A stretch of 40,605 bases of DNA from a virus, in the IMG/VR virus record IMGVR_UViG_3300032213_003470, positions 1 to 40,605 of that record. One strand, 5' to 3'. Made by a program: the position numbers and the translations under genes. Positions 14,002-39,079 of this stretch are shown here, in pieces. Position 1 is the first letter of the stretch. Each line of letters begins with the position of its first letter. The notes under the pieces are model-generated. The model saw nothing but the letters and a program-made list of their open reading frames with translations, was not told the origin of the DNA and did no database searches.

Positions 14002-14255
14002 TATCGAACATACTTATTATTTTTAGGAACTCTATAGTTAACAAAATTTCTAATATTCTTTGTCGTCTCAATTAATCTAAAAACAACTTTCTCGATGGAA
14101 TTTAATATACTTTTTCTGTTATTATCCCCCCCAAGAGTTATAGAAGAAAGGGTTTTTTCAAATATTCTTCCTTCATATTCAAAACCAACGTTTGTTCTTT
14201 TATCCTCTGTTGTTTCAATATATTCGTAATAGCTCTTTCTTTCTGTGTTAAACAT
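14001..14255 (-). CDS. Small unknown protein between gp6 and the giant protein
   Basis: The 84-aa product starts MFNTERKSYYEYIETTED and is basic overall, with a helical C-terminal half (SILNSIEKVVFRLIETTKNI). I do not recognise it. It overlaps the gp6 stop by one base (TAATG) and its own stop overlaps the start of the giant gene in the same way, so the three are probably translationally coupled. This tight placement between two baseplate genes suggests a small wedge component or an assembly factor, but no motif proves it. Confidence 0.6.
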   Translation of the reverse strand: MFNTERKSYYEYIETTEDKRTNVGFEYEGRIFEKTLSSITLGGDNNRKSILNSIEKVVFRLIETTKNIRNFVNYRVPKNNKYVR

Positions 14256-15979
14256 TACTGATTGTTATTTTTTAAGAATGTTTTATTCTTATTATTGATT
14301 TCGGTGTTATATGTTACAGGAACAGTAGATCTGATATCAATATTAATAGAAGAGATTTTATTATAATCTGCTCCCTTGTCATAATAAAGTCCTGCTCTAT
14401 CTCCCCATCCTCCCGTTATAATTGCAATCTCATCTTTGTCAAATATTATATCTCCAAACTCATCTAATCCTAGAACTATTTTTTTCTTAGGATCGTTGTC
14501 AGGAAGTCCATCAACACTTATAGCATATTTTTCATTCTTTTCGCTGACGAAGAATAATGTAACAGAATCAACACCTGCTATAGATTCTAATATAGCAATT
14601 AGATCCGATCTTGGAATTTTATCTCTTCTTCTTATTCCTATAAAATATGAACTTATAGAATCAACAATTTGACCCTTAACAGTATCAGGATCATAACCCT
14701 CAAAAATACTAATTAAAACATTGATCACATATCTTGAAATTTTAGGATCTAATATTTTAACCTCTGTGGTTACTATTTTTTGTCCACTATCATCTATCAC
14801 TTTTAATAATCTTTGCTTTTGATAGTCGGTTAATATAAATTCTGTTTCTTTTATATCAAAATATGTTTCGTTAGTTTTTAGTTTCTGAGTAATGTCTGGT
14901 ACTAATAAAACATAAATAATGTTATCATCGTCTAGATATTGATCATCAAACGTGGAGAATGCTTCTATTATAGAGAATGTACCAAATTTTTCAAAATATG
15001 TAATATATGTTTCTGCATTTGCTAAGACAAAAGACCTCGATGTTTTAGGAGCCAATATTCTGGTAAGTTGTATAGATTCTTTATCAGTACCAAGCTGGGG
15101 AGCAATAACGCATGTTATTTTTAAATAATCTTTTAGAGAAACTGGATTACCGAATGCATCAGTACCATCATCATCAAATTCAAATACTATTTTTCCTGGC
15201 TCTAATGAATTTATGTTTCCCGCAATTCCTATAGTTTCAACATATTGAACTTGTATAGTTGATCCTAGAGGAGGCATTTTTCCAAAATTAACGTTACCAA
15301 AAATAACATCTATTCCGTTATTAATTCCTGTTTTAACTAGACATCCATTGTAGTTAAATGGAATATCATATAAAGAGTCGTAAATTTTCCATTCTTCGCT
15401 ATCGACAAATACCTTAACCTCAAAATTATCAACAGTTGATGTTACTCTATCAGATACATTATAGCTTTGTAAAATTGTTCCGCTTCCTGTAAATGTTGAA
15501 GCCTTTATACTTCCCTCCATTATCTCGCAAGAGATTTTGCTAGAAGGAGTTAAGTTCAGTCTAGCATAATCTTGAGGTAGATTTAAAATATAGCTAACAC
15601 CTCCGTTTTGAAATTTTATAGTGGAGTATTTTGGTATTAAAATTGCACTACCACCAACACTTGTAGAATCCTGTCCATTCCATGTAATATCTATTTGACC
15701 TCTTGCACAACCGCTTCTTGTAGCATTATGTCCGGTTAATGCTGCTAAGCCATACACAGAACTTTCTCTACTTGCTTTTTTAATATCAAGTTCAGTTATA
15801 GAATCCTCTATGAAGAATAATATAAGCTGTGACAGATTCTGAAGAACAAACAGAATTTGTCCCCATGCAGAAGCAACAGTAAATAACTGATTTGCTTGAT
15901 TGTACCTTTTTTGTATTAGCTCAAGAGTATCCTGTAGTAGGTCTTGTATCTTGGCACGATTTTTTTTAAATAAATCCAT
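14255..15979 (-). CDS. gp6: Baseplate wedge protein, gp6 / baseplate J family
   Basis: The 574-aa protein matches the gp6/J family of contractile tails, which forms the inner ring of the baseplate and drives sheath contraction. Supporting segments are the helical N-terminus (residues 1-70) and the barrel-like middle with FEVKVFVDSEEWKIY at 186-200. The conserved run DVIFGNVNFGKMPPLGS (224-240), then IQVQYVETIGIAGN, corresponds to the family's G-x-FG-x-x-P-x-G and Y-x-x-x-x-G-x-x-GN pattern. T4 gp6 is of similar length (about 660 aa). It lies 3 bases after gp25, the order seen in many myophages and R-type tailocins (25 then 6/J). The ATG at 15979 has no clear Shine-Dalgarno. Confidence 0.85.
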   Translation of the reverse strand: MDLFKKNRAKIQDLLQDTLELIQKRYNQANQLFTVASAWGQILFVLQNLSQLILFFIEDSITELDIKKASRESSVYGLAALTGHNATRSGCARGQIDITWNGQDSTSVGGSAILIPKYSTIKFQNGGVSYILNLPQDYARLNLTPSSKISCEIMEGSIKASTFTGSGTILQSYNVSDRVTSTVDNFEVKVFVDSEEWKIYDSLYDIPFNYNGCLVKTGINNGIDVIFGNVNFGKMPPLGSTIQVQYVETIGIAGNINSLEPGKIVFEFDDDGTDAFGNPVSLKDYLKITCVIAPQLGTDKESIQLTRILAPKTSRSFVLANAETYITYFEKFGTFSIIEAFSTFDDQYLDDDNIIYVLLVPDITQKLKTNETYFDIKETEFILTDYQKQRLLKVIDDSGQKIVTTEVKILDPKISRYVINVLISIFEGYDPDTVKGQIVDSISSYFIGIRRRDKIPRSDLIAILESIAGVDSVTLFFVSEKNEKYAISVDGLPDNDPKKKIVLGLDEFGDIIFDKDEIAIITGGWGDRAGLYYDKGADYNKISSINIDIRSTVPVTYNTEINNKNKTFLKNNNQ

Positions 15980-15982
15980 CTT

Positions 15983-16354
15983 TTAAATTACCTTTATTCC
16001 TAGAACTGGGTTACCTTTGATTGCAAACTCTATCATACACGTATCTCTTGTTTCGCCTTCAAAAAATCCCAATTGAAAGTCAATATTTAAAATTCCTCTA
16101 GCAAAAGTACAATAGGTGTATAACTGTAAAGAAATAGCCTCTTCTAATTCGCTTTGAGAAACCTCAAAATCAAATATCATTGATTCCAGATCGATGCCAA
16201 AATAAGGATCACCCAAAACAGTCCCAGGCTTGGTAAGCATGATTTGTTTTATCATACCTACGGTTGATTCAACAACATCATCAGTTTCCAGCTTGTCTGC
16301 CTCATAATGAGGGTCGTCAGGATTTCTTGGGTATATGTCCGAGATTTTGATCAT
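15983..16354 (-). CDS. gp25: Baseplate wedge protein gp25
   Basis: The 123-aa protein is the gp25-like wedge subunit, which contacts gp6 and helps start sheath assembly. The diagnostic core is at residues 36-61: KQIMLTKPGTVLGDPYFGID, then LESMIFDF. This matches the family pattern of a helix, T/K-R/K-PGE-like loop, D-P-x-FG and an L-x-x-x-I/L-F helix. Length is close to T4 gp25 (132 aa). It is followed 3 bases later by gp6, as in other contractile tails. It has one of the few clear Shine-Dalgarno sequences in the window (AAGGGAG), after a 48-base spacer from the upstream gene. Confidence 0.9.
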   Translation of the reverse strand: MIKISDIYPRNPDDPHYEADKLETDDVVESTVGMIKQIMLTKPGTVLGDPYFGIDLESMIFDFEVSQSELEEAISLQLYTYCTFARGILNIDFQLGFFEGETRDTCMIEFAIKGNPVLGIKVI

Positions 16355-17175: not shown

Positions 17176-18636
17176 TTAGTTATTATTTTTATATAGCTTA
17201 TTCACTGAAAAAGCAGGTCTTTTTTTATTAAGATCCTCAAATGGATCAAGCCTTGTAATATCTTCGTGATTTCTGTCAGGAAAAATAGTAGCCTTTATCA
17301 TTTTTCCGCCTTTACCCTTTCCTTTGTCTTTGCCTTTAGCATCTGCGCTATTACTAATGATCTCTGTGGAATCTGAGATTACTGCTAGTTTTGTTATGTA
17401 CCCTGATCTAATAACCCCGCCTTCAACGTCGCAACTAATTTCTCTTTCCTTAGAATCTATATAGGAATTAATGACATTGTTGCTAAAACTTAGGTCACAA
17501 TCAAGAATTTTAGAATCCTTTATATCATTATTCATAACAAATTGTGAGTCTTCTATCTGGCAGCTGTCTAATTTACATCCAAATATTCTACATCTTGCTA
17601 TGTTTCCCTCTATATCACATTCTATTAGATCTAAATCTTTTAACAAATTAGCTGTTTTTGTTCTTCCATCTTTTAATTGATATCTAGCAATTTGTGTGTC
17701 ATAATTTAAAAATCCTTCAGTGATACCATTATCAACAATTAGACTGTAAAGGAAATTTTTTACTTCATTAAAGTATGTTTTAATTATCTGTAGATCTTCT
17801 CTTAAATCAACGGTAACGTGAAGATTTGGATAGTTTCTCATGAAAGATTCAGGATCTATAAAGCTTTCGGTTTCTTTGTAAACCTTAGATATTAATTCGC
17901 TAAGTGTTGATGTCTCTTTCTGTGTTAACGTGTCATTATGTAAAAGACAATTAAATGTATGGGTTATTATATAATCCATAATCTCTTTAATGTCGGTGTA
18001 CTTTTTTTGATAATCAGTACCTCCTAAGTATCTAACCTCCATATACCCATCTTGTAATTTGGTTAGATTGACACCCATATTTTTTTCAGTATAAACAGTG
18101 TAAGAATTTCTGTCTCCTAAAATATCCTTATGTCCTCTTATAAATCTATTAGATGGCGATATTCTTTTAATAGATTTAGCATATAAAGATCCTCTTCTTT
18201 CTGGAAATTTTTTCCATATAAATTCCTCATCAAACCCAAGAACAAACTTTAGCGGATTTAATTGGCTAAAATCTATAAGAGTTGGATATTTTACTCTATC
18301 GAAGCTTAGACCAAATTGTAATGCGCATCTTTCACTGGTATACCCATTTTCGTCTATCCATTTTAGGATTCTAATTAAAACCGGTATTGCCTCAAAATAA
18401 TCCATAGGCCCAGTTATTAATTCAACCATCTTGAGCCCTCCTGAAAAATCTGGCTCTAGTTTAAAAATATCACGAGTTGGGGAAAATTTAGAGTGGTACT
18501 TTCTAAATACCTTTACCTGTTTCCCTAAATCTTCCCCAATTTTTTCAGCTATTTCTTTTCTTGAAAAAGAAGACATGAATTCGAATTCGAATCCGATTTT
18601 AGCTGCATAATAAAAATTTTGATCAAGTATTTTCAA
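17176..18636 (-). CDS. Amidoligase (COOH-NH2 ligase) fused to a beta-helix-like domain
   Basis: The 486-aa protein has hallmarks of the glutamine-synthetase-fold amidoligase family, which joins a carboxylate to an amine using ATP. These are a GFEFEF motif at residues 15-20 (family GxExE, with metal/ATP-binding Glu17 and Glu19), MVELITGPM at 70-78, and GYMEVRYLGGT at 197-207 (family E-x-R core). Residues ~333-428 form a short-period repeat (CDIEGN, CRIFGC, CQIEDSQF, SKILDCDLSFSNN) like a right-handed beta-helix or pentapeptide-repeat stack. A Lys/Gly linker and a 40-residue tail follow. I use the TTG at 18636 because the essential GFEFEF lies upstream of the next Met. It overlaps the S1 gene by 14 bases. 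The substrate is unknown; modification of a virion or host protein or peptide is possible. Confidence 0.75.
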   Translation of the reverse strand: MKILDQNFYYAAKIGFEFEFMSSFSRKEIAEKIGEDLGKQVKVFRKYHSKFSPTRDIFKLEPDFSGGLKMVELITGPMDYFEAIPVLIRILKWIDENGYTSERCALQFGLSFDRVKYPTLIDFSQLNPLKFVLGFDEEFIWKKFPERRGSLYAKSIKRISPSNRFIRGHKDILGDRNSYTVYTEKNMGVNLTKLQDGYMEVRYLGGTDYQKKYTDIKEIMDYIITHTFNCLLHNDTLTQKETSTLSELISKVYKETESFIDPESFMRNYPNLHVTVDLREDLQIIKTYFNEVKNFLYSLIVDNGITEGFLNYDTQIARYQLKDGRTKTANLLKDLDLIECDIEGNIARCRIFGCKLDSCQIEDSQFVMNNDIKDSKILDCDLSFSNNVINSYIDSKEREISCDVEGGVIRSGYITKLAVISDSTEIISNSADAKGKDKGKGKGGKMIKATIFPDRNHEDITRLDPFEDLNKKRPAFSVNKLYKNNN

Positions 18637-19747
18637 TTTTTTGCTTTAGATAGAGTTTTGAACTCTGTAGCTCTACGTCCATAATGGTGCAGGATATTTC
18701 AGATCCTACTTCATAATCTTTTGGATTTCCAGCCAAATAGTCCTTTTCAACAAGGCCAACGATGTTATTTTCAAGTTTTACAAAAACCCCGAAATTCTTC
18801 ACCTTTGTCACTGTCCCTCTATATATTTTATTTTCTTTATCTTCTGATAAAGAAATGTCTCTAAGCTCTTGTAAATCCTTATCTTTACCTTCCGGCGGAT
18901 TTAATCTTAGTACAATTCTGTTCGGATTTCTAAAATCAGAAACATAGAATGATACGCTTCCTCCAGAGCTTAAATCCATTTTAATACCTGCATTGTCAAA
19001 TTCTTCAGCAGGAATTAAACCTGTGTAATACAGATCCCACTCTACAAATACACCAGCATTTGATGCTCCTGTAACTGTTCCCGTGTATTTTTGAGTGAGT
19101 GAAAGTTCTTCAACTTTAGCATTAATAACATGCTTAAGATATTTTTTAAAAGAAACAACAAAAATGTCTCTTCTTTCATCATAAGTCTCAATCATGATAT
19201 TGATTGTTTTCCCAACAAACGATTGGAAATCTATGATTCTATTAGCAGCTGCTAAAGATCCAGGCAAGAAACACTTAATACCAGAAAGATTCACCATAAA
19301 GCCACCTGGGCATGTTGAATCAATTCTTACTGTATATGCTGATTTCTCGTCTTTAATGGAATTTAAAAGATCAGTCTTTAATGAATTTTCGTATCCCGCT
19401 GCTAGGGATCCGTTATACATTCCTGATTTATCTTTGAATATAACAACATCTAATTGTGATCCTTCCTGTACATCAAGTGCAGGGAATCCCAATCTTTTGA
19501 TTGCTTTTTCTTCCTTCATTAAATCTATTGCAACGGATTGACCTACTGAGGTTTCCCCTATTGCACTTGTTCCTCTGATTTGTGTGATCTTTACACTCAG
19601 AACCTGGTTTTCTTCTAGCTCTTTAGAATATGATTGCGCAGGGTTATCTGCGAAGGTTACTCTAAAGTGACCTTCGTAAAGTTCGTCCATAACAGCCCTT
19701 TCTTCCGGAGAATACTCGTCCCTTGTGTATTGTCTTTTCTTAGCCAT
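18623..19747 (-). CDS. Multi-S1-domain RNA-binding protein, ribosomal protein S1-like
   Basis: The 374-aa protein contains four S1-type OB domains at about residues 48-117, 136-203, 218-282 and 308-370. The third and fourth are the clearest: YTGTVTGASNAGVFVEW and YRGTVTKVKNFGVFVKLEN match the G-x-V-x-x-x-x-x-x-G-x-F-V signature. Domains 1 and 2 are more diverged but keep the hydrophobic spacing and the G/S ends. Bacterial S1 (four to six domains) delivers mRNA to the 30S subunit, so a phage copy could favour phage mRNAs, most of which here lack a Shine-Dalgarno. It lies between the 1512-aa structural gene and the amidoligase, overlapping the latter. The ATG has a purely A-rich leader. The protein might also act on phage RNA or as a structural OB protein. 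Confidence 0.85.
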   Translation of the reverse strand: MAKKRQYTRDEYSPEERAVMDELYEGHFRVTFADNPAQSYSKELEENQVLSVKITQIRGTSAIGETSVGQSVAIDLMKEEKAIKRLGFPALDVQEGSQLDVVIFKDKSGMYNGSLAAGYENSLKTDLLNSIKDEKSAYTVRIDSTCPGGFMVNLSGIKCFLPGSLAAANRIIDFQSFVGKTINIMIETYDERRDIFVVSFKKYLKHVINAKVEELSLTQKYTGTVTGASNAGVFVEWDLYYTGLIPAEEFDNAGIKMDLSSGGSVSFYVSDFRNPNRIVLRLNPPEGKDKDLQELRDISLSEDKENKIYRGTVTKVKNFGVFVKLENNIVGLVEKDYLAGNPKDYEVGSEISCTIMDVELQSSKLYLKQKIENT

Positions 19748-19770: not shown

Positions 19771-22700
19771 TTAGTTTATGTTAATTTTAGTACCAAACCC
19801 TAAATTAATTTCAAGAGTTGGGAGGGGATAAAATAATTTTCCCGCTCCTATAAAGAATTTGAATCCTCCTGAGATGTCTGCTGCAGATCTTATGAATTCA
19901 TCAAGAAAAACAACAAAGAATGGATTTTTTAAAGACATCCTATCCCATCTTGGTACATCTTCCCTAGTATAAAGAGGATTTAGTATATTAATAATATTTC
20001 TTCCTAATAAAACTACTATTGGCCAAGGCAGTTTATAAACTATGGCTTTTTGTAGATTTATAAGCTGTTCTATTATATCTGAAGGTATTGGAATTCTAGG
20101 CGGACTTTTATATTTAGTCCATAATAGAGTAAATGCAATATCAGCAAATGGATGAACAGGAAGAAAACTCATAACAAGTTCAACGTAATCCTGTGGTCTT
20201 GCTTCTAAAGGTATACGAGGTAAATTATCTAATGCAGGTATATTAATTTTATCCAAAAAAGAAACTGCTGTATTATTTCCCATTACTTTAATATCATCTG
20301 CAGTAAGATTATCGAATGCAGGTAGGCCACCAGGTATTATTTTAGCAACATCCATTGAATCAATAGCAGAGGATGCTCCTTTAACTATAAAATTTGCAAT
20401 AACAGCTCCTGGTATTATTATAGGAGGTATTCCTCCTGGCCCGATTGGAACTGCAGGGTTACCACTTTTCTTTGGTGGAAATGGGGGTAATTCTAAAGAT
20501 GAAGAAAATTTAGAATATTCCTGAGCAACATCTCCAGCACTAGCAATATTAGGAAAATTAACATTCTTTAAATCAACCGGAAATTTACTTAGTGTTTTAT
20601 CTAAAGAATTTCTAATCATCAATTGAATATCCTTCTCTCTTAATACCTTATTACCCCCTATAGATGTTCTGTCAGCAAGCTTAACTAGATCCTGAACATT
20701 AACATTCAAATTCTTGGAGACAAACCCCTTAACAGAGCTAACAATAGGATTAGGCGTTGATATTATTGCACCAGGTGCAGGAAGACCAGCTCCTGGAATT
20801 CTTGGTATCTTTTTTAATTTGGGTTTAAAAGTCAAAAGAGATTTATTACTTAACGGGGATTTGTCTCCGCTAAATATTTGTCCTATTCCATCAGATATTA
20901 TTCCTTTTAATGATTCTAAATCTTCCGGATTTTTACCAAGTTCGTTTATTGGAGAATTAAAAACTGCTACTATTCTAGATCCTTTTGGAAGATCTTTGTT
21001 AAGATCTGCATACTTAGAAGCCGATTTAAATTCTATATTCTTAACAGAATCTAGAATTCTAGATTTTAAATTAATCTTTCCGCCCTTAGAAGGAACCTGT
21101 GGTATTGCTCCTATTTTTATTTTAGCATTAATGTCTCTTATGATTTTTATAGGAGAAGGTATATCAGCAATTAAATTTTTTGATTGCTTAGGAAATTGTA
21201 CATCAGGAACGGTAATTGCACTTTTTAAATAATCTTTCATTATGGATTTAATTGCTTCGATTTTTTGTGCATCAAATGAAGCTGATAATTCAGATAACTC
21301 TTTTATTTTTTGGCCGGGATCTGACCCATCTAAAGGTGATTTTCTTTTAGCATCCAGAATTTGATTTTCTAATTCTTGTTTCTTTTTAGCTAAATCATCC
21401 TGAACTTTTTGAATCTTTGAGAAATCTACATTTACCTTAGCATTAGCTAATCTTTTTTTAAGACTTGCTAAAATGTCTTTCTTTATTCTTTTAGGATCAT
21501 CAACGTTATCTTTCCCAAGATTTGGGAAAGGAAATAAATAATTTGGTATTCCTAGCGATAGGAATTGCTTTATTCTAACCAAAGGATCTGGTATAACTGG
21601 ATCCGATTTTCTCGGAATGAATCTAAATCCTCTAATACCTAAAAGAAATATTGAATTGCCAGTTAAGAAATCATGGAAAAAAACTAAAGGACTAGGCATA
21701 AATCCCCCAATAAAAGGTATGAATATAACAATAACACCTATAGGTAAAGGTATAACTATAGGAGGTATAACAGTCCATATCATTGGCATTGGTATTCTTA
21801 TAAAAGGAAGACCATCTAATGGATTAACTAAAGGCGGAGGTAAAGGTATGAACGAAGGAGGCAGATAACCTACTGGCCAATACTTTAATCCAATATTAGG
21901 CAAGAAACCTGCAGGATTTTCTATTGGTGGTAATCCATTTGGTATAGGAAGAAATCCAACAGTCGTAGCTTTTTTGGCAAACTCTTTCCAATAACACGTA
22001 GTAAAAAGATTAGGACAATCAGGGGAGTTTAATCCTTCTATTATATTTCCTCCAGAAAATGCTTGACCCGATGCCCCACAACAATCTGGAGGACACGCAA
22101 CTTTTAGAGTGTCACTATTTGTGGGCTTGGAATTTCCGTTAGCATCAAGTCCTAAAGAAATCCCGGTGGAAGTGGATCCGCCAGATCCTGCTCCTTCTCC
22201 ATTATCTCCTGAGCCAAAGCAATCTATAGACTCAGCCCTTGATTGTAAAACCTCAGGAGAATTTTGATTATCGATCTCCTGTATTTTTTGTGCTACCTCT
22301 AATAAAAGGGTTTCGATGTATTCAACATTCTTATCCATTTTATCAGATACATCTTTTAACATTTTACTGTTGTCTGATGTAGAGCTCATATTGACAGTAA
22401 AATAATAATCAGCTAGAATATCAACAAATTTATCTGATAGGGATTTTATTGAATTTATTTTATCTTCTACTAGCTTTTTTCTTGCGTTGTATTTTAAATC
22501 ATAAGATTTTTTAAAGCTACCCCAGAAATCACTAAAAGATTGATTTGGTTCTCCGTCCTGATTTGTACTTTGTGGTTTAATATCAGCTGATTTTCTTGCA
22601 TCGTTATCGCCTCTTTCATCTGCACTAAAAAATAACCAAGGACTAGCAGATATTTCTATAAGAGTTGAATATAAAAATCCATGTGATTTTTCGATGTCTT

Positions 22701-24309
22701 TTATAATTGCATCTTTTGGTTTATTTGATCCTTCTATATCTTGTACAAAGTTATAAAACTGAGGAGACAGATCTGGATTTTTGTCCTGGAAGGATATGAA
22801 ATCTTCATACGATTTAAGAAATGAAGAATTTCCTGATCCTAAAATACCCTTTTTAGAAAATTCCATTCCCAGTTGTAATTTGGTAATATCAACTCTTTCG
22901 TAATCAGTAGACAAAAGATCTGAGGTAGCTTCTGGTTTAACTGTTTCATATGGTATTTCTTTTCCTAATCCATTCGGAAATGCTATATCAAATTTAATAC
23001 CTACGTATCCTTTCTTTCCAGAAGATGTTAATTTTTTGGTATCCTTAAATCTGCCCGAGAAATCTTTAACAGCATCTAAGAATTTATTAGCTTCAGATCT
23101 TGCTAAAACAATAGCAAGTATTAAGGTTAAAGGATTTCCTTTTTTTCCAGCTTTTGCCTTTGCTTCAAAAGATTTGGAAAGACCGTTATAATAATTTTTA
23201 ACTATCTTATAATGATAAAGAATTTCTTCTAGATCCCTTTCAGCCTTTTCGTATCTAGATCTAAGCTCATTATTTTCTCTTATGTCTTTAAAAATATCCT
23301 TTGCCTGACTTAAACATTGATTTATTTTTTCACTAACATCTTCTATATCACCCTCTGGTAAAACCTCTGGTATAGCAGATTCATCCTCAGGTAAACATAT
23401 TTCTTCTATGAATGATTTAAGATTCTCCTTAGTAAATAAGGGTTCTCCCGTTTCCGGATTAATTGGAAAATCTGGTTCGCAAAAAACCTGATCAACTATA
23501 TCCGATACATCAAATGCATTATTAGCATCTCTTTCGGATGATTCTCTGTCTAATATATTATCTAGAAGGGAAGCAAGATTTTCAGGATCTATATTATTAG
23601 ATCCAAATCCAGAATCTGACCCAGCTTCTGAACCACTGCCATCCCCAAAATCATCATTTGTAGATGTTGCGGGTCCTGCGCCAGATCCGTATTTGTTATA
23701 GATATCATCTGAGCACTTTTTTGGTTTACCCTTTTTGCTTTTCTTTTTTAGCTGGTCTCTTATAAATTGAAGAGACATCTTTTTAGGAGCAACATGAAAA
23801 AACAGAGGAATTCCCTTATGTGTTATAACGTGTATTTCAAATCCAAACGGACCTATTTTAAATTTTCTAATTTTTTTGTTAGACCCCGTAAATTTTATTC
23901 CTAATAGATCAAGATCTAAACTATCAGACACCATTTCTTTAGCGCTGAGAAGTTGTTCAGAAAGATTGTTATCGTTCATAAATTTATCAAAAAATCTATT
24001 TCTTGAAAAATCGGGTCTTTCTGATATTTTATCTAGATAATTTTGCTTTCTTAATATCTCCCAGAAAATTCTATTAGCAAGTTCTTCACCTTCGTATGCA
24101 CAGATAAAATCATTAATCTCATCATCAGTTAATATCATAGGAACCGGACCTATAGACTTTTCTAATTCCTCCGCATTATTAATTATTTCTTCATCACTAG
24201 GAAGATTGTCGGTAAATCCACCGAATTCATTTAGAACGTCTTCCGGTTTGAGTTCACCGCTAGAGATTCTATCGCTTATATCTTGAAGTTTATTAAAATT
24301 AAAATCCAT
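19771..24309 (-). CDS. Large structural protein with Pro-rich hydrophobic segments; tape-measure or ejected-protein candidate
   Basis: The 1512-aa protein is unrecognised. It starts MDFNFNKLQDISDRISSGEL. Residues ~1-340 are charged with a Gly/Ser linker near 230. About 340-700 is mostly helical. A Cys cluster lies at ~737-773 (CPPDCC, then SPDCPNLFTTC). About 780-905 is very hydrophobic and proline-rich (IPMPMIWTVIPPIVIPLPI, then GVIVIFIPFIGGF). About 960-1030 is helical and heptad-like (DDLAKKKQELENQILDAKRK), and the C-terminal ~230 residues are again hydrophobic and Pro-rich. Length, coiled coils and membrane-like segments fit a tape-measure or membrane-inserting ejected protein, and the gene directly follows the spike. 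However, most of it is not continuous helix, so another baseplate role is possible. A weak AAGG precedes the ATG. Confidence 0.6.
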   Translation of the reverse strand: MDFNFNKLQDISDRISSGELKPEDVLNEFGGFTDNLPSDEEIINNAEELEKSIGPVPMILTDDEINDFICAYEGEELANRIFWEILRKQNYLDKISERPDFSRNRFFDKFMNDNNLSEQLLSAKEMVSDSLDLDLLGIKFTGSNKKIRKFKIGPFGFEIHVITHKGIPLFFHVAPKKMSLQFIRDQLKKKSKKGKPKKCSDDIYNKYGSGAGPATSTNDDFGDGSGSEAGSDSGFGSNNIDPENLASLLDNILDRESSERDANNAFDVSDIVDQVFCEPDFPINPETGEPLFTKENLKSFIEEICLPEDESAIPEVLPEGDIEDVSEKINQCLSQAKDIFKDIRENNELRSRYEKAERDLEEILYHYKIVKNYYNGLSKSFEAKAKAGKKGNPLTLILAIVLARSEANKFLDAVKDFSGRFKDTKKLTSSGKKGYVGIKFDIAFPNGLGKEIPYETVKPEATSDLLSTDYERVDITKLQLGMEFSKKGILGSGNSSFLKSYEDFISFQDKNPDLSPQFYNFVQDIEGSNKPKDAIIKDIEKSHGFLYSTLIEISASPWLFFSADERGDNDARKSADIKPQSTNQDGEPNQSFSDFWGSFKKSYDLKYNARKKLVEDKINSIKSLSDKFVDILADYYFTVNMSSTSDNSKMLKDVSDKMDKNVEYIETLLLEVAQKIQEIDNQNSPEVLQSRAESIDCFGSGDNGEGAGSGGSTSTGISLGLDANGNSKPTNSDTLKVACPPDCCGASGQAFSGGNIIEGLNSPDCPNLFTTCYWKEFAKKATTVGFLPIPNGLPPIENPAGFLPNIGLKYWPVGYLPPSFIPLPPPLVNPLDGLPFIRIPMPMIWTVIPPIVIPLPIGVIVIFIPFIGGFMPSPLVFFHDFLTGNSIFLLGIRGFRFIPRKSDPVIPDPLVRIKQFLSLGIPNYLFPFPNLGKDNVDDPKRIKKDILASLKKRLANAKVNVDFSKIQKVQDDLAKKKQELENQILDAKRKSPLDGSDPGQKIKELSELSASFDAQKIEAIKSIMKDYLKSAITVPDVQFPKQSKNLIADIPSPIKIIRDINAKIKIGAIPQVPSKGGKINLKSRILDSVKNIEFKSASKYADLNKDLPKGSRIVAVFNSPINELGKNPEDLESLKGIISDGIGQIFSGDKSPLSNKSLLTFKPKLKKIPRIPGAGLPAPGAIISTPNPIVSSVKGFVSKNLNVNVQDLVKLADRTSIGGNKVLREKDIQLMIRNSLDKTLSKFPVDLKNVNFPNIASAGDVAQEYSKFSSSLELPPFPPKKSGNPAVPIGPGGIPPIIIPGAVIANFIVKGASSAIDSMDVAKIIPGGLPAFDNLTADDIKVMGNNTAVSFLDKINIPALDNLPRIPLEARPQDYVELVMSFLPVHPFADIAFTLLWTKYKSPPRIPIPSDIIEQLINLQKAIVYKLPWPIVVLLGRNIINILNPLYTREDVPRWDRMSLKNPFFVVFLDEFIRSAADISGGFKFFIGAGKLFYPLPTLEINLGFGTKININ

Positions 24310-24314
24310 TTACC

Positions 24315-25094
24315 TTAATTAGACTTTGTTACTTTAACCACATCTGATGTCGAAAGTTGTTCGTAGCTTTCAGCTAGGCTTGTCATTGTTCCTGGCGTTG
24401 ATGGAAGTTTAGCATCTACCGCAGCTGCAAGTTGTTTTAAAAACATCCATAAAGGCTCAGCAAGAATTGCAGAGTATACCGGAGCATGTCCAAGTTTTGT
24501 TGTTTTTCCATCTACCCACACTTCATTACTACTTTGTTTAATTCTGGTTGTAGCTGTACTTTCAATTTCAGAATTAGCAAATTCTGTTATTTTTCCTCCT
24601 CTAAACTCTAAGGTTGATGTTTGACCTGCATGTGTTATTGTTATAGAATTATCATTTGAAATAACAACAGTTGATTCTTTTAAATCTATAACTAATCCTT
24701 TAGCAACTGTGTAATATATTTTTAGTTTTTCTATCCCATCATATATTAAAGAATGGGCACCTTCATACGATGCACTGATCTCTTCAATTAAATCTTTAGA
24801 AAGTTCTTGTACTGCTTTGTATTCAGGCGAATAATAATTTCCATTATTAAATTGCACATGTACTATACACCCAAGCTTTGGTATACTAACCCTTCCTGAT
24901 CCTCCATTATCCCCGAATGAAATATCAAATCTTTGAAATGCCCAAGGTAAATCTTCGTCTTTGACATCATCAAAAACACCAAAAACCCTAACTTTACACC
25001 TTGCTTTAAATTCTGGATCTTTGTTATCCACAACAACACCTAAGAAGTGTTGGGATCTTTCTATATTAGATTCTTGTAAATTTTGTGAAGACAT
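24315..25094 (-). CDS. gp5: Baseplate central spike, gp5-like OB-fold protein without lysozyme domain
   Basis: The 259-aa protein begins with a gp5-type OB domain at residues ~15-100. Its features are GVVVDNKDPEFKARCKVRV, DEDLPWAFQRF, and IPKLGCIVHVQFNNGNYYSP. These match the N-terminal domain of T4 gp5 and phage-type spike proteins that sits on the gp27 hub. Residues ~105-200 are short beta-strands (LVIDLKESTVVISNDNSITI, then HAGQTSTLEFRGG) forming a brief spike helix or prism, and the C-terminus is helical. T4 gp5 is 575 aa with an internal lysozyme domain, which is absent here, so the membrane tip or PAAR cap and any muralytic activity must come from another protein. It lies 33 bases after the 730-aa gene and two genes after the gp27-like hub. 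Confidence 0.85.
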   Translation of the reverse strand: MSSQNLQESNIERSQHFLGVVVDNKDPEFKARCKVRVFGVFDDVKDEDLPWAFQRFDISFGDNGGSGRVSIPKLGCIVHVQFNNGNYYSPEYKAVQELSKDLIEEISASYEGAHSLIYDGIEKLKIYYTVAKGLVIDLKESTVVISNDNSITITHAGQTSTLEFRGGKITEFANSEIESTATTRIKQSSNEVWVDGKTTKLGHAPVYSAILAEPLWMFLKQLAAAVDAKLPSTPGTMTSLAESYEQLSTSDVVKVTKSN

Positions 25095-32010: not shown

Positions 32011-32529
32011 TTAAATTAGTTTGTTTTGAAATATTTTTAAAAATAGGCAAGATATTAGGGCATCGTCTATGTTTAGAGCATCATTTAAAGAAACAAGTGA
32101 AAATTTACTATTTTTTTCACTTTCTGAGCCATCCCCTAGTTTATCCTCTCTTTCGAGACCGGTAACATCAACGCCAAATGCTGGATTACCGTTCACTACC
32201 AATTTGGATGATTGTATATTACCTAAAAAATCCCATTTTTCGGTGTCCTCAACGACATAGCCTGATTCTTCAGTCAATTCTCTTTTTGCTGTCGCTAGAA
32301 TATCAACATCAGATTTTTCAGGCGATCCTGTTATAACAGTTTTAATCATTCTCTCCTCCTTTATATCAGAGGGTTCGGAAATAAGTCCTATCGATTTAGG
32401 ATTTCCGTTCTCGTCTATGGTATAGGGGAGAATCATTACTGATGGGTTTTTTTGTTTAATTCCAACCCTTCCTTTGTTTTCTATCACCTGGATATAATTA
32501 TTCTGGAATAGAATCTTGGGATCTGACAT
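32011..32529 (-). CDS. Nudix hydrolase
   Basis: The 172-aa protein carries a Nudix box ending in RELTEESGY at residues 83-91, which fits RE-U-x-EE-x-G-U exactly and supplies the metal-binding Glu84, Glu87 and Glu88. The first half is irregular: the Gly is one residue farther away than usual and the position normally Glu is Val or Asp. Nudix enzymes cleave nucleoside diphosphates linked to another group (NDP-sugars, NADH, caps, oxidised dNTPs); the substrate cannot be read from the sequence. The N-terminal beta-strands (FQNNYIQVIENKGRVGIKQK) are as in ADP-ribose-type family members. The start overlaps the upstream gene by 32 bases. It is the only clear nucleotide enzyme in the structural operon. 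Confidence 0.85.
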   Translation of the reverse strand: MSDPKILFQNNYIQVIENKGRVGIKQKNPSVMILPYTIDENGNPKSIGLISEPSDIKEERMIKTVITGSPEKSDVDILATAKRELTEESGYVVEDTEKWDFLGNIQSSKLVVNGNPAFGVDVTGLEREDKLGDGSESEKNSKFSLVSLNDALNIDDALISCLFLKIFQNKLI

Positions 32530-33784: not shown

Positions 33785-34017
33785 TGGAAAAATACGGATA
33801 TAAAAATATTTCATCTAGGGATGAGTTTGAACAGGCGTCTTCGAAAGAAGGACATCACGATTTTTCTTATAATTCAGGAAATCATATCACACATCAAGGA
33901 TTTATTAATTGGGGTGAACAAAAAGATTGGGGTGTACCTGGACAATCAATATACACTGTTAAAACAGTAGAAGATCTTTTAAAAGCCAATGAAATCGTAT
34001 CAAACACTAATCACTAA
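33784..34017 (+). CDS. Small unknown protein coupled to the DUF5824 gene
   Basis: The 77-aa product (MEKYGYKNISSRDEFEQASS) is His- and Gly-containing, with HHDFSYNSGNHITHQGFINW near the middle and a short C-terminal helix (TVEDLLKANEIV). I do not recognise it. It starts within the stop codon of the DUF5824 gene (TAATG), so the two are probably translated together. Its own stop overlaps the stop of the convergent gmd gene, inside a short inverted repeat. The clustered histidines could bind a metal, but this is speculative. Confidence 0.55.
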   Translation: MEKYGYKNISSRDEFEQASSKEGHHDFSYNSGNHITHQGFINWGEQKDWGVPGQSIYTVKTVEDLLKANEIVSNTNH

Positions 34018-34030
34018 TCCTTTAGTGATT
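34009..34030. terminator. Inverted repeat at the convergent stop codons; possible bidirectional terminator
   Basis: AATCACTAA (34009-34017) and TTAGTGATT (34022-34030) form a perfect 9-bp stem with a 4-base loop (TCCT). Both stop codons, TAA of the plus-strand gene and TAG of gmd, lie in the left arm. The stem has only two G-C pairs and there is no T-run on either side. It is therefore a weak candidate for intrinsic termination and might instead affect RNA stability. Confidence 0.4.
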
Positions 34031-35021
34031 CTGCTATCATCTCATCAAATATTTCTGACAGAGATAGTTTTGGTTCCCATCCTAATACTTTTTTAGCTTT
34101 AGATGCATTACCCTGTAGAAGTTCAACTTCTGCTGGTCTATAATATTTAGGATCTATTCCTATAATAATTCTTCCAGATAATTTATCAATTGCAATTTCT
34201 CTTTCTCCCCCATCTTTCCAATCTATATCTATATCTAGTTTTTGACAAACCATGTCGACCATTTCTTTAATAGAGTAGGTCTTACCTGTCGCTAGTACAA
34301 AATCTTCTGGAGATTCTAGTTGAAGCATTCCCCACATACCCTCAACGTATTCTTTTGCGTGTCCTATATCTCTTCTAGCAGAAAGATTACCTAATGTTAG
34401 TATATCAACCTTTCCTTTTTTAATCTGACATAAGGAATCTATAATTTTCTTCTCCACAAAGTTTTCGCCTCTTCTTGGAGATGTGTGGTTAAAAAGAATT
34501 CCATTACATGCAAATAAATTATAAGATTCCCTATAGTTTTTAACAATCCAATATCCATATAGTTTTGCAACTCCGTATGGAGATCTTGGATAAAATGGGG
34601 TATTTTCAGTTTGTGGGGTTTCCTGGACTTTCCCATAAAGCTCAGATGTTGATGCTTGGTATAATTTAGAATTTGGTGAATGAACCCTAATTGCTTCTAG
34701 AACGTTTAATGTACCCATAGCATCTACTTGTCCGGTATAGTTTGGAATTTCAAAAGAAATTTTTACATGACTCTGAGCAGCTAAATTATAAATCTCATCA
34801 GGCTTTAATTCAGAAATTACATGAGATACACTTCCAGGATCAGTTAGATCCATATAGTGTCTCTTGAAATTTGAATGTTCTCTAAAGTGTTCTATTCTTC
34901 CAGAATTAAAAGAAGAAGATCTTCTAATTGTTCCATGAACCATATACCCCTTTTCTAAAAGAAGTTCTGCTAAATAAGATCCATCTTGTCCGTTTACTCC
35001 GGTAATTAATGCTGTTTTCAT
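34014..35021 (-). CDS. gmd: GDP-mannose 4,6-dehydratase
   Basis: The 335-aa extended-SDR enzyme converts GDP-D-mannose to GDP-4-keto-6-deoxymannose, the first step to GDP-L-fucose. NAD(P)-binding GVNGQDG is at residues 8-14. It is followed by the family-typical GTIRRSSSFNSGRIEHF. The active-site region includes STSELYG (124-130) and YGVAK with Tyr149 and Lys153. FNHTSPRRGENFVEKKI is also characteristic, so substrate identity is firm. It overlaps fcl by four bases (ATGA), so both are made from one message. It is the last gene of the cassette and converges on the plus-strand pair. Length is near the bacterial norm (about 345-370 aa). Confidence 0.95.
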   Translation of the reverse strand: MKTALITGVNGQDGSYLAELLLEKGYMVHGTIRRSSSFNSGRIEHFREHSNFKRHYMDLTDPGSVSHVISELKPDEIYNLAAQSHVKISFEIPNYTGQVDAMGTLNVLEAIRVHSPNSKLYQASTSELYGKVQETPQTENTPFYPRSPYGVAKLYGYWIVKNYRESYNLFACNGILFNHTSPRRGENFVEKKIIDSLCQIKKGKVDILTLGNLSARRDIGHAKEYVEGMWGMLQLESPEDFVLATGKTYSIKEMVDMVCQKLDIDIDWKDGGEREIAIDKLSGRIIIGIDPKYYRPAEVELLQGNASKAKKVLGWEPKLSLSEIFDEMIAESLKD

Positions 35022-35953
35022 TTTCTAACTTTATCTTTATTGTCCCAATACCATTTTACGGTTTCTGCTATTCCCTTTTCTATTGTCATTTTAGGTTTCC
35101 ATCCTAAAGATTCAATTTTAGAATTGTCCATTACCTTTCTGGGTGTTCCGTCTAATCCCTCAGTATCAAAAAGAATATCTCCTTTATAGTCTATAGCATG
35201 AGCAACTATATTTGCTAATTCTTTTATTGAAATCTCTGATCCACTTCCCACGTTAATTAAGCCATCATTTCCTTTATAATTTTCTAGCATGAATATTACA
35301 GCTTCTGCTAGATCTTCCACATAAAGAAATTCTCTAAGGGGTCTTCCTGTTCCGAGTAGTTTAAGCGTTGGTTGATTGTTGTCTCTAGCGCTTTCAATTT
35401 TTCTAATCATTCCCGGAATAACATGGGAAGCTTCTAGATCAAAATTATCACCCGGACCATAAAGATTACACGGCATTAAAGAATAGTAATTCTTTCCATA
35501 TTGTTCTTTGATCGAATCACATAATTGAATCCCAGCAATCTTTGCCAAGGCATATGATTTATTTGTCTTCTCCAAAGGACCAGTTAAAAGATATTCTTCC
35601 TTAATTGGTTGTGGACATTCTCTCGGATAAATGCAAGAAGATCCTAGAAATATAAGATTTTTGACATCACTCTTTAAAGCAGACATTATAATATTATTCT
35701 GAATTGTGAGATTCTCGTGCAAGAATTCTGTAGGGTATGTTGAATTAGCAACTATTCCTCCAACTCTAGCAGCTGCAATGATTACATATTCCATTTTATT
35801 TTCAAAGAACCAATCTAGGACCTTTTCCTGATCAAAAAGATCTAGCTCCTTTCTCGAAGGAGCATAAACCTTATATTTTTCGGCGTCTATTTTTTTAAGA
35901 ATGTTAGAACCAACTAATCCTGTTGATCCAAATATTGCAATATTTTTTTTCAT
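35018..35953 (-). CDS. fcl: GDP-L-fucose synthase
   Basis: The 311-aa epimerase-reductase turns GDP-4-keto-6-deoxymannose, the Gmd product, into GDP-L-fucose using NADPH. It has the GSTGLVG nucleotide motif at residues 9-15 and AAARVGGIVANSTYP (60-74), characteristic of the family. SSCIYP lies at 105-110 and the catalytic pair Tyr134/Lys138 sits in KSYALAK. MPCNLYGPGDNF and ASHVIPGMIRK also match GDP-fucose synthases closely. It overlaps gmd by four bases and follows a glycosyltransferase gene by 10 bases. GATATATGA sits just at its start but overlaps the ATG. The full two-step pathway from GDP-mannose is thus encoded here. Confidence 0.95.
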   Translation of the reverse strand: MKKNIAIFGSTGLVGSNILKKIDAEKYKVYAPSRKELDLFDQEKVLDWFFENKMEYVIIAAARVGGIVANSTYPTEFLHENLTIQNNIIMSALKSDVKNLIFLGSSCIYPRECPQPIKEEYLLTGPLEKTNKSYALAKIAGIQLCDSIKEQYGKNYYSLMPCNLYGPGDNFDLEASHVIPGMIRKIESARDNNQPTLKLLGTGRPLREFLYVEDLAEAVIFMLENYKGNDGLINVGSGSEISIKELANIVAHAIDYKGDILFDTEGLDGTPRKVMDNSKIESLGWKPKMTIEKGIAETVKWYWDNKDKVRK

Positions 35954-35963
35954 ATATCATTGA

Positions 35964-36593
35964 TTATTCTCTTTCTGGTTTTTCTCCCCTATTTTCTCCT
36001 GCTCTTTGAAAATGATATGCAAAAGAATTAACAACAGCAAATGTTGATCCTGCTGCTATACACTTCTCTCTAAACTCAGAATCATTCGGGTGAGGAAATG
36101 TCTTCGAGAAGTCAAAACCACCCATTTTAATGTACCATTCTTTCTTCCAAACTGAAGGAGAGTACCAGCAAAATCCTTCTCTTATTGATGGGCGATCTTT
36201 AGAATATTCTTCCACCCATTTTTCAAATTCTGATCTATTGAAAGAATTTGCGGTTCTTCCAAAATCTTGATGGATGTTAGTTGCAGCCACTCCTATGGCT
36301 CCACATTCAATTAATTCGAGTCCTAACCAATCTGCATCATCTTTGTGTTTGATAATATTATCCATGAATTTTGGAGCATATGTTATATCTGAATTATCCC
36401 ATAGAACCAGGTCATATTTAGCTCTTCTCATCATCCAATCCCATGATTCATAAACTAAATCAGGTCTTCCTGTGTTGGATAAAACCATAACCTCATAGGG
36501 GTAAGTGGAATTCTCTTCTAACATTTTTAATTTCAATTGGAGAACCGCATCATTCTCTTTGTTCATAGCGTGGGGAAAAACTATACTAATCAT
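35964..36593 (-). CDS. Family 2-like glycosyltransferase
   Basis: The 209-aa protein is a compact GT-A type transferase. It starts with MISIVFPHAMNKENDAVLQL in place of the usual strand-loop-helix. Middle features are YPYEVMVLSNTG and YDLVLWDNSDITYAPKFMDN, where DNSD (66-69) may serve as the DxD-like metal and NDP-sugar site. Later it has MGGFDFSKTFPHPNDSEFRE, with Asp171 in the place of the typical ED general base. It ends in an aromatic and charged tail (FAYHFQRAGENRGEKPERE). It lacks membrane segments. It overlaps the epimerase gene by four bases and precedes fcl, so it may use GDP-fucose or the product of the neighbouring epimerase. The acceptor is unknown. Confidence 0.75.
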   Translation of the reverse strand: MISIVFPHAMNKENDAVLQLKLKMLEENSTYPYEVMVLSNTGRPDLVYESWDWMMRRAKYDLVLWDNSDITYAPKFMDNIIKHKDDADWLGLELIECGAIGVAATNIHQDFGRTANSFNRSEFEKWVEEYSKDRPSIREGFCWYSPSVWKKEWYIKMGGFDFSKTFPHPNDSEFREKCIAAGSTFAVVNSFAYHFQRAGENRGEKPERE

Positions 36594-37624
36594 ATCATTT
36601 CTTTTATTATTTTTCTTAGGTCATATTTTTGAATCCAATTTGGATAATCATTTCTAAATTTTGTCTTATCACTAATATACCAAATATGGTCGCCTTCTCT
36701 TGGGGTTTCAAGTAATTCATAGTCTACTCTTTTACCTGATATTTCATGAATTAATTCAATAGCTTCTAGAATTGAGCAGTTTGAAAGATTTCCTCCTCCT
36801 ATATTATAGACTTCACCGGGATTAGGATTTTTATAAAATTCATAAAAGGCGGAGACAACATCACTAGAGTGTATGTTATCTCTAACTTGTTTTCCTTTGT
36901 ATCCATTAATGTAATATTTTTCTCCTGTCATTGCACATTTTACTAGATAAGATAAAAATCCATGAGCCTTAACACCTGAATGATTTTGTCCAGTTAAGCA
37001 TCCACCTCTGAATGTGCCAGTTTTTAATCCAAAGTATTTTCCATATTCCTGTGTTATTAAATCCCCGTAAGCTTTTGATACACCAAATAAAGAATGCTTA
37101 CATTGATCTATTGATAGGTTTTCGTTAATTCCTTTTTCTATAAAATCAGAATTAACCGGATTAAATCTAGAATTAGATTCTGTGTATTCTGTTATAGTAT
37201 TAGGTAAATCTCCATAAACTTTATTGGTAGAAGTAAAGATAAAAACTACCTCTGGAAAATAATTTCTTGTTATTTCTAGCATGTTTAAGGTACCAAGTGC
37301 ATTTGCATTAAAATCTGCAAACGGATTTGTTGCTGCCCAATCATGAGAAGGTTGAGCAGCTGTATGAATAATCATCTTTAAATCTTTAATGCTGGATAAA
37401 CTAGTCTGTAGATCTTGATAAGATGAAATATTAATTGAAAGATGCTGGTAATTTTTAAGTTCTTTTAATTGAGAAAGCATCCCATTTGTACTTGCTTCTT
37501 TTCCAAAAAATTTAGCTCGAGAATCATCATCAATTCCAATTATTTTAAATCCTTGTGTATGAAAGAATTTAACAGCTTCACTTCCAATTAATCCACAGGA
37601 TCCGGTTATAATTACAGTTTCCAT
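36590..37624 (-). CDS. NAD-dependent sugar epimerase, CDP-paratose 2-epimerase-like
   Basis: The 344-aa extended SDR has GSCGLIG at residues 8-14 for NAD binding. Its sequence follows the CDP-paratose (CDP-tyvelose) 2-epimerase-like group: HTAAQPSHDWAATNPFADFN (87-106), STNKVYGDLPN, FRGGCLTGQNHSGVKAHGFL, and GYKGKQVRDNIHSSDV. The YxxxK active-site position reads FGVSK with Phe180 and Lys184, so the usual catalytic Tyr is Phe. As I remember it, this Phe form also occurs in related proteins, so it may be typical of the subgroup. Substrate is thus uncertain, and it need not be a CDP-sugar. It overlaps the GT2-like gene downstream (ATGA) and starts 2 bases after the methyltransferase stop. Confidence 0.8.
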   Translation of the reverse strand: METVIITGSCGLIGSEAVKFFHTQGFKIIGIDDDSRAKFFGKEASTNGMLSQLKELKNYQHLSINISSYQDLQTSLSSIKDLKMIIHTAAQPSHDWAATNPFADFNANALGTLNMLEITRNYFPEVVFIFTSTNKVYGDLPNTITEYTESNSRFNPVNSDFIEKGINENLSIDQCKHSLFGVSKAYGDLITQEYGKYFGLKTGTFRGGCLTGQNHSGVKAHGFLSYLVKCAMTGEKYYINGYKGKQVRDNIHSSDVVSAFYEFYKNPNPGEVYNIGGGNLSNCSILEAIELIHEISGKRVDYELLETPREGDHIWYISDKTKFRNDYPNWIQKYDLRKIIKEMI

Positions 37625-37626
37625 TT

Positions 37627-38154
37627 TTATATTATTTTAATAATTCCGATTCCACTAGCTATATCCCTATTAGGATCTATAAATTCTATAAATTCATATT
37701 CATTTCTTATTTCATTCCAAAATTGGGAAACCCCTTCACAGTCTCTTTGTCCTAATATGTCGTGAAATGCCATGTATTTACAAAGACCTTTATAATTCAA
37801 ATAATCAGATTTAACTCCTAAATAAGAATGATCTCCGTCTATGAAATAAAGATCACACGGCTTTGCAGTTTTTATTATTTCAGGATCTCTAGAACTTCCG
37901 TGTATTATGGGTAGATCTTTATGAGTATCCCTTGGTTCTAAAGTAATTCCCGTTGTATCAAGTTCAAATTCATCCCTCATAAATCTTAGGAGCTGTCCAG
38001 CAGCACACCCTATCTCTGTGTAGGTTTTAATATTTTTTTCCTTTATAAATTCACAAAGCTTTTCAAGTTCATAAGCATTTTGTTCCAGTCCTCCGTTCGC
38101 ATCATTTCCACCTAAAGCCCAATGGAGAGAATATTTTTTTATTTTATCTTTCAT
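37627..38154 (-). CDS. Class I SAM-dependent methyltransferase
   Basis: The 175-aa protein has motif I TEIGCAAGQ at residues 46-54 (SAM binding) and an acidic loop DLYFIDGDHSYLGVKSDY (101-118), with Asp106, Asp108 and His109 as metal- or substrate-binding candidates. AFHDILGQRDCEG follows at 129-141. This pattern is that of the cephalosporin-hydroxylase/CmcI-like and Methyltransf_24 group, which methylates small molecules or sugars. Placement between a glycosyltransferase and an epimerase in a sugar cassette suggests O-methylation of a glycan residue. It lies 10 bases after the GT-B gene and 2 bases before the epimerase start. The N-terminal GGNDANGGLEQNAYELE is typical of sugar-cluster methyltransferases. 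Confidence 0.75.
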   Translation of the reverse strand: MKDKIKKYSLHWALGGNDANGGLEQNAYELEKLCEFIKEKNIKTYTEIGCAAGQLLRFMRDEFELDTTGITLEPRDTHKDLPIIHGSSRDPEIIKTAKPCDLYFIDGDHSYLGVKSDYLNYKGLCKYMAFHDILGQRDCEGVSQFWNEIRNEYEFIEFIDPNRDIASGIGIIKII

Positions 38155-38164
38155 GATTTAGCTT

Positions 38165-39079
38165 TTATATTTTATTTAAAATTTCATTATACTTATAGGC
38201 AAAATTAGCATTTAGATAATTTTCCCTAACATATGTATTTCCGCTTTTAGCAATTTTATTTCTTATGTCTGGGTTTCTTTTTAAAAATTCAATTACATCC
38301 AATAATTCATAATTTGTTTTATAATAAACGCAATGCTCCCAATTAATAAAGAATTCCTCTATACCAGGAAAATATTTCATCAATACACATGAGCCTGATG
38401 CTAGCGCTATTAAGTTACGGTGAGTAAAATACCCATCTATATCATTTCTATTATTATGTGCAATAGTTAAATATGATGAATTATATAAGTCTGGAACATT
38501 TGAGAAATCTATTCCCCCCTTTGCTGAATTACTCTCATATGGGAATGATCCATAATACTCTAATTCAGGAGTATATTTCCCAATAAATTTTACGAGAGAT
38601 ATTCTTTCTTCACCCCCTGGAAAATGCTCATAAACATTGCCAACAAATACTATTCTTCCAGAAGATATCTCCTTTACATCTCTAATCTGCCTATCATCAA
38701 ATACCTCAAAAAGATATTCACAAGGTGTATTAAGGATTCGAGAAAAAGATTTTAATTGTTCTCCTTTAAATGGAAATAAATAGAGATTTGCAACATCAAT
38801 CATGCTCATTGCCTCGGGTAAAGGTGCATATCTAACGTCACCTACCCATATGGTAAAAAAAGCATTAGTTGATTTTTTAAGCAAATGACATTCTTCAATC
38901 GAAATGGCATTACCGTGCATATAAACAAGGTCCGGATTAAATAAAGTAGATTCCTCCATATTTTTAAAAACACGAGCTTCAAATTGGGTATTAAATCCAG
39001 ATAACATGGAGTTAAATATTGAATCACTCTCAGCATGTCTACAATAATCTAAAGGAATGTATAAAAGCTTTTTTCTCAT
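38165..39079 (-). CDS. GT-B-type glycosyltransferase (CgeB/group 1-like)
   Basis: The 304-aa protein appears to be a GT-B glycosyltransferase. The N-terminal half (KLLYIPLDYCRHAESDS, LVYMHGNAISIEECHLL, FFTIWVGDVRYAPLPE) is a Rossmann-like domain. The C-terminal half has the CgeB/YkvP-like signature: RIVFVGNVYEHFPGGEERIS, YNSSYLTIAHNNRNDIDGYF, THRNLIALASGSCVLMKYFP and NPDIRNKIAKSGNTYVRENY. The last two correspond to the nucleotide-sugar binding E/G-x-x-A-x-G and the terminal repeat-like region of group 1 transferases. It has no membrane segment. It overlaps the upstream transferase by four bases (ATGA). Substrate and linkage cannot be told from the sequence. Confidence 0.8.
   Translation of the reverse strand: MRKKLLYIPLDYCRHAESDSIFNSMLSGFNTQFEARVFKNMEESTLFNPDLVYMHGNAISIEECHLLKKSTNAFFTIWVGDVRYAPLPEAMSMIDVANLYLFPFKGEQLKSFSRILNTPCEYLFEVFDDRQIRDVKEISSGRIVFVGNVYEHFPGGEERISLVKFIGKYTPELEYYGSFPYESNSAKGGIDFSNVPDLYNSSYLTIAHNNRNDIDGYFTHRNLIALASGSCVLMKYFPGIEEFFINWEHCVYYKTNYELLDVIEFLKRNPDIRNKIAKSGNTYVRENYLNANFAYKYNEILNKI

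Follow-up and report, generated by a model that had tools for sequence, protein, structure and literature searches.

In the phages LUZ24, SCYZ1, LAh_9, Paul, RIO-1 and KZY1 the amidoligase gene lies beside genes for a COOH-NH2 ligase, a glutamine amidotransferase or an ATP-grasp protein, and a passage in PMC10580990, citing Iyer 2009, relates the proposal that amidoligases of this phiEco32/LUZ24 type change the cell wall against superinfection. That huge phages carry S1-domain proteins, and that these are linked to missing Shine-Dalgarno (SD) sites, has already been published (Al-Shayeb 2020, PMC7162821); the same work places all of the largest phage genomes in the Mahaphage clade and predicts Bacteroidetes hosts for the five genomes of more than 634 kb. 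Within the literature on huge-phage S1 proteins we found no operon link between S1 and an amidoligase. Here we describe such a pair in a 40.6-kb virus contig from IMG/VR, the whole of which is referred to as the window. The named records with relatives of the window protein are the metagenomic genomes LR756500-504 and LR745206, of 462-735 kb, from which we infer that the window derives from a huge, Mahaphage-like phage.

All of the structural genes discussed lie on the minus strand (Table 1), and the order of transcription is gp5/VgrG-like OB protein, 1512-aa protein, S1, amidoligase, gp13-like protein, gp25 and gp6, with the gp13, gp25, gp6 and gp5 homologues of a T4-type neck/baseplate module surrounding the S1-amidoligase pair. 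The original prediction had set the pair between the 1512-aa gene and the gp25/gp6 wedge genes, and these flanks stand, though the gp13-like gene in that interval had gone unnamed. The order S1, amidoligase, gp13, gp25, gp6 is found again in dozens of independent contigs and is therefore not a product of chance. Pfam and PHROG searches with the 1512-aa frame returned no convincing match; its gene is syntenic through most of the S1-linked branch described below. Five relatives (L056, L058, L071, L096 and L017) have about 1.2-1.7 kb between gp13 and gp25, perhaps an inserted gene, which is absent in some other relatives. Elsewhere in the window, a nucleotide-sugar and glycan module occupies 34014-40451 (minus strand), with a GDP-mannose 4,6-dehydratase (4.9e-137), two more epimerases, a glycosyltransferase, a possible methyltransferase and a DUF5672 protein, and a NUDIX-domain protein lies beside the structural genes at 32011-32529 (minus strand).

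Table 1. Positions in the window of the S1-amidoligase pair, its domains and motifs, and the neighboring structural genes
Feature	Position	Strand	Remarks
gp6-like baseplate wedge protein	14255..15979	-	PHROG 219 E=4.9e-22
gp25-like baseplate wedge protein	15983..16354	-	PHROG 261 E=0.0027, PHROG 43 E=0.038 (both baseplate wedge subunit)
T4 gp13-like neck protein, 256 aa	16403..17173	-	directly downstream of amidoligase; profile vs PDB gp13 E=6.5e-7
Amidoligase-like gene, 486 aa, TTG start	17176..18636	-	GS-fold ligase, helical region, beta-helix and Lys/Gly-rich tail (predicted)
Disordered lysine-rich C-terminal tail (KGKDKGKGKGGK)	17179..17352	-	pLDDT mostly <50
Pentapeptide-like right-handed beta-helix, residues 306-428	17353..17721	-	strand pattern in model
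GS-like catalytic domain, residues 12-232	17941..18603	-	AF2 model, Foldseek
E200-x-R202 motif, then Y203	18031..18039	-	invariant 57/57; aligns with E-F-R of LUZ24-type family
G15-F-E17-F-E19 motif	18580..18594	-	G, E, E invariant 57/57
Overlap of S1 stop and amidoligase TTG start, 14 nt	18623..18636	-	TTG kept in close relatives
S1 protein gene, 374 aa, ATG start	18623..19747	-	bS1-like; N-terminal helix (residues 14-32) and four OB/S1 domains
S1 domain 2, residues 138-199, FLPGSL signature	19151..19336	-	PGSLAAAN invariant in 22 phage S1 proteins
1512-aa protein, function unassigned	19771..24309	-	immediately upstream of S1
gp5/VgrG-like hub-spike OB protein	24315..25094	-	PHROG 430 E=2.7e-13; profile vs T4-type gp5 E=1.7e-7

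Our findings suggest that the second open reading frame of the pair encodes a phage-specific and presumably catalytic amide ligase with a glutamine-synthetase (GS) fold. By the Pfam rule alone it would go unnamed, because its match to PF12224 (Amidoligase_2; E=0.0026, residues 13-66 only) scores 18.1 bits and the curated cut-off of the family is 22 bits; the anticipated match to an amidoligase profile thus exists, but below threshold. Of ten relatives, four match PF12224 with E values of 1 or less, the best being 0.0012. The identification as an amidoligase is instead supported by the fold model and the active-site residues. The AlphaFold model (pLDDT 85, pTM 0.77) begins with a GS-like alpha/beta domain and continues through a helical region and a beta-helix to a disordered tail. 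In a Foldseek search of viral models the top match is a single protein with the whole of this architecture (9.7e-44), and the next matches, at E of 4e-14 and weaker, mostly carry the name amidoligase, so that the confidence of the model and the top named viral matches together point to a GS-like ligase fold. Against the PDB, Foldseek gave no match at E<0.001, and the nearest structures, type III glutamine synthetase (1.4e-3) and gamma-glutamylcysteine synthetase (gamma-GCS, 3.5e-3), are suggestive only.

Conservation of the site was followed in a 57-member alignment spanning 28-80% identity to the window protein, in which G15, E17, E19, D63, S65, E72, E137, R147, Y152, K185, G188, N190, E200, R202 and Y203 are invariant in all 57 sequences. 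The GxExE site, whose retention in homologues had been expected, is therefore kept throughout, and the full set G-x-E-x-E, D-x-S, E, R and E-x-R runs in the same order as in the reference family. Judged from these residues the amidoligase active site is intact, and their invariance disfavors the reading of the domain as a dead scaffold. The H-x-H site (S-T-H-x-H in the references) is altered, to H-x-N in several relatives and to Q-F-G in the window. Comparison with the LUZ24/phiEco32-type family by hhalign gives a weak alignment (probability 1.9, E=0.025) that keeps register between the CSTH region and E-x-R, passing through E..R and K-Y..N. The window ligase thus lies outside curated PF12224 by score and is amidoligase-like by predicted fold and site.

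The fusion of the ligase to a beta-helix, also part of the original prediction, is borne out by the model, in which strands recur about every five residues between residues 318 and 414, and by Pentapeptide_4, which matches five of ten relatives (best 5.6e-6). Beta-helix-only matches fall inside other large open reading frames of 692-2190 aa (in G006, G007, LR745206 and LR756501), and a similar repeat is therefore present in other phage proteins. A role of the beta-helix as a DNA mimic was dropped, its net charge being only about -5. Past residue 428 the tails have, across relatives, a median lysine content of 17%, against 7-10% in the body of the protein, which makes a basic C-terminal end a trait of the family.

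Two alignment scans of IMG/VR gave 532 and 446 relatives, two sets that presumably overlap; the best 80 from each scan were fetched, so that the fetched set is not a random sample. The locus survey comprised 186 loci in 87 clusters at 90% identity. A homologue of a neck, tail or baseplate-region gene of the window lies within 8 kb of the ligase in 76 of the 87 clusters, where some neighbors, such as w29485 and w27323, owe their assignment to the neck/tail/baseplate region to synteny rather than to a known function; in the remaining 11 clusters, three of which have short flanks, none of the listed tail genes lies within 8 kb. Where the original prediction saw an unexpected insertion in a baseplate operon, this distribution makes the ligase a regular member of the neighborhood. 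Adjacency to S1 is another matter. S1 lies within 2 kb of the ligase in 27 clusters, all of which fall in one branch, and the ligase locus of 54 clusters contains no S1. The S1-linked branch also contains LR756500 and the contig L210, in which S1 is not adjacent, and long branches leave the base of this group unsure. In the phages of 634-735 kb, S1 is encoded elsewhere in the genome, away from the ligase, and in four of ten large contigs, which may be incomplete, S1 of this kind was not found. The gp13 gene directly follows the ligase in two branches, the S1-linked one and a separate deep one (L182 and L184, at 4 bp), and lies within about 1.5-4 kb of it in several others. With gp13 following across branches and S1 adjacency restricted to one, the wider association is that of the ligase with neck/tail genes. 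The adjacency to S1 anticipated in related phages thus recurs beyond this genome but is lineage-specific, and an obligate pair is ruled out by the same distribution. Lak phage was rejected as a carrier of the ligase, as it has S1 and no amidoligase.

The family appears to be confined to phages. A search of plasmids gave no ligase orthologue, and the only cellular match is L210 (CAIWBA010000291.1, 254 kb), a contig of a Bacteroidetes MAG on which the neck gene gp13 and an S1 of phage type are also encoded; it is probably a huge-phage contig binned with a bacterium. A cellular or plasmid origin or spread of the family was rejected on these grounds, which argue for a phage-specific role, and PADLOC gave no match that would mark the ligase as a defense gene. 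Farther afield, the 440-kb Salicola phage SCTP-2, from a different host, has two adjoining distant relatives of the ligase, gp125 and gp124 (L026, 10924-14684; E 8.4e-12 and 2.1e-13), and in Agrobacterium phage Atu_ph07 an Amidoligase_2 gene annotated as hypothetical (L228, 9930-11432) is found some 2.7 kb away from the portal gene, a further case of a jumbo-phage amidoligase near a virion gene.

Within the S1-linked branch, the two frames are closely tied. The predicted overlap of 14 bases is present as described, and its TTG start is the same in 15 of 15 close relatives and is apparently used also in a subclade of about 50% identity; in a group at 45% identity the start appears to be an ATG, within a short overlap. 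Overlapping or closely spaced frames (within 150 bp) occur in 24 clusters. The retention of a rare TTG over such a distance at the S1 stop would fit coupled, low-level translation, and the overlap and the kept start codon suggest that S1 and amidoligase are probably translationally coupled in the branch of the window.

The protein encoded by the first frame has the four S1 domains originally assigned to it (Pfam S1, E=1.4e-16). Its family profile matches residues 58-344 of E. coli bS1 (E=2.4e-36), its AF2 model shows four OB domains preceded by an N-terminal helix, Foldseek returns 30S-bound bS1 structures first (best 1.3e-23), and domain 2 carries the signature FLPGSL, which we take to be shared with domain 2 of bS1. 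Together these features indicate derivation from bS1 itself and not from any S1-domain protein. By similarity the layout follows bS1, with the ribosome-anchoring N-terminal helix and domains 1-2 followed by RNA-binding S1 domains, and the phage protein probably docks on the ribosome; bS1 domains 5-6 are missing, and the score against the rpsA equivalog is 83.1 bits for a cut-off of 577. With starts taken mechanically as the first ATG, SD sites precede 4% of the starts in the window against 8.5% expected, compared with 3.7% against 5.9% and 6.8% against 6.3% in two contigs of the same branch (G001 and G002) and 67% against 12% in LUZ24 as a control. An SD signal is absent in the window. It had been proposed that S1 steers translation toward phage mRNAs lacking SD sites, and the lack of such sites stands. 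A passage in PMC9976891 states, however, that Bacteroidota ribosomes do not use SD sites; if Bacteroidota are the hosts, S1 need not separate phage from host mRNAs, and a phage without SD sites may simply match its Bacteroidota-type host. The Bacteroidota promoter motif, examined as a test of the host, showed no enrichment, a result that speaks neither for nor against such hosts.

Taken together, the reading that we favor, with a probability of roughly 0.4, is that the ligase is a late enzyme for the ATP-dependent amide modification of a virion protein. Expressed together with the late morphogenesis genes, it would couple a carboxylate to an amine at the expense of ATP, its target being a neck, tail or baseplate protein of the virion to which the beta-helix and the basic tail would hold it. 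The bS1-type protein would dock on the host 30S subunit and help to load A-rich, SD-less late mRNAs, while coupling would keep the TTG-start ligase at a low, S1-linked dose; S1 and ligase need not act on each other. The position in a late operon may reflect the timing of expression only. More tentatively, and as a possibility to which we assign less weight, the largest known phages may carry a dedicated, beta-helix-docked amide ligase for virion proteins that adds or cross-links amide bonds in the neck/tail, with the lysine-rich tail possibly serving as the amine donor. Few cases of enzymatic chemistry on phage particles are known to us, and in the open-licence literature we found no phage paper tying an amidoligase to the virion proteome, or isopeptide chemistry to the neck.

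Other roles have to be weighed against a late virion-modifying enzyme. S1 and ligase could form a single unit for the takeover of translation, in which S1 would deliver the ligase to the ribosome and the ligase would modify either S1 itself or one of the host's ribosomal proteins, much as RimK adds glutamate to bS6. The close spacing in 24 clusters, a TTG start kept in two subclades and an S1 of the ribosome-docking type by similarity are consistent with such a unit, but the 54 clusters without S1 in the locus, and the large genomes and contigs in which S1 lies elsewhere or was not found, make it unlikely, as the ligase stays with structural genes instead. We also consider it improbable that the enzyme works like the phiEco32/LUZ24-type amidoligases in helping to build a small peptide or a surface or DNA modification. 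Although this has a proposal in the literature (the passage in PMC10580990, citing Iyer 2009) as well as the same fold and motif set in its favor, the window ligase is located in a late structural operon, and the partners of that pathway are missing: a COOH-NH2 ligase was found in none of ten ligase-family genomes or large contigs and GATase_6 in none of the five complete genomes of 462-735 kb, both being found in the LUZ24 control. With both absent from five complete relatives, the window ligase does not appear to be part of that pathway, even though two contigs from the branch of the window have a weak GATase_6 match in a 476-483 aa frame, at a distance of about 30 kb from the S1-ligase pair (G001:170837-171169 and G002:137594-137926). 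Finally, the protein may have retained the fold while acting mainly by binding, as a component of the virion with a structural or chaperone-like role. The constant structural neighborhood, the fused beta-helix and the change of the family H-x-H to H-x-N or, in the window, Q-x-G would suit such a component, yet the invariance of the other predicted site residues over deep divergence renders it distinctly improbable.

Modification of a virion protein by a late amide ligase thus remains the reading we prefer. A widespread ligase with a conserved site, encoded among neck/tail genes in phages of up to 735 kb, suggests that covalent modification may take part in making large particles or in their working. 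Our findings also allow several hundred uncharacterized phage proteins to be annotated under one family name, and the S1 part supplies an operon context for the already published idea on S1 and missing SD sites.

In comparison with known systems, the window ligase shares with LUZ24 gp18 and the enzyme of the phiEco32-like phage Paul (PF12224) a GS-like fold, a phage-encoded origin and the motif order G-x-E-x-E, D-x-S, E, R, K, E-x-R; unlike them, it falls below the Pfam cut-off, has an altered H-x-H, is fused to a beta-helix, and is found with neck/tail genes and without the GATase and COOH-NH2 ligase partners. Type III glutamine synthetase and gamma-GCS are its nearest solved folds but are metabolic enzymes, at about 10% identity and E >1e-3. 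The beta-helix is of the same quadrilateral kind as in the pentapeptide-repeat proteins MfpA and Qnr, though similarity to these is only weak and of the repeat type. The phage S1 shares with bS1 its domains 1-4, and with the huge-phage S1 proteins the SD-less phage mRNAs and carriage by huge phages, and differs from bS1 in lacking domains 5-6 and in its score of 83 bits, a long way short of the rpsA equivalog cut-offs (577 bits). The whole architecture of the ligase, including the beta-helix, is shared with an uncharacterized protein of an uncultured Caudovirales phage (BFVD A0A6J5PQ40; TM 0.80/0.88, 28% identity).
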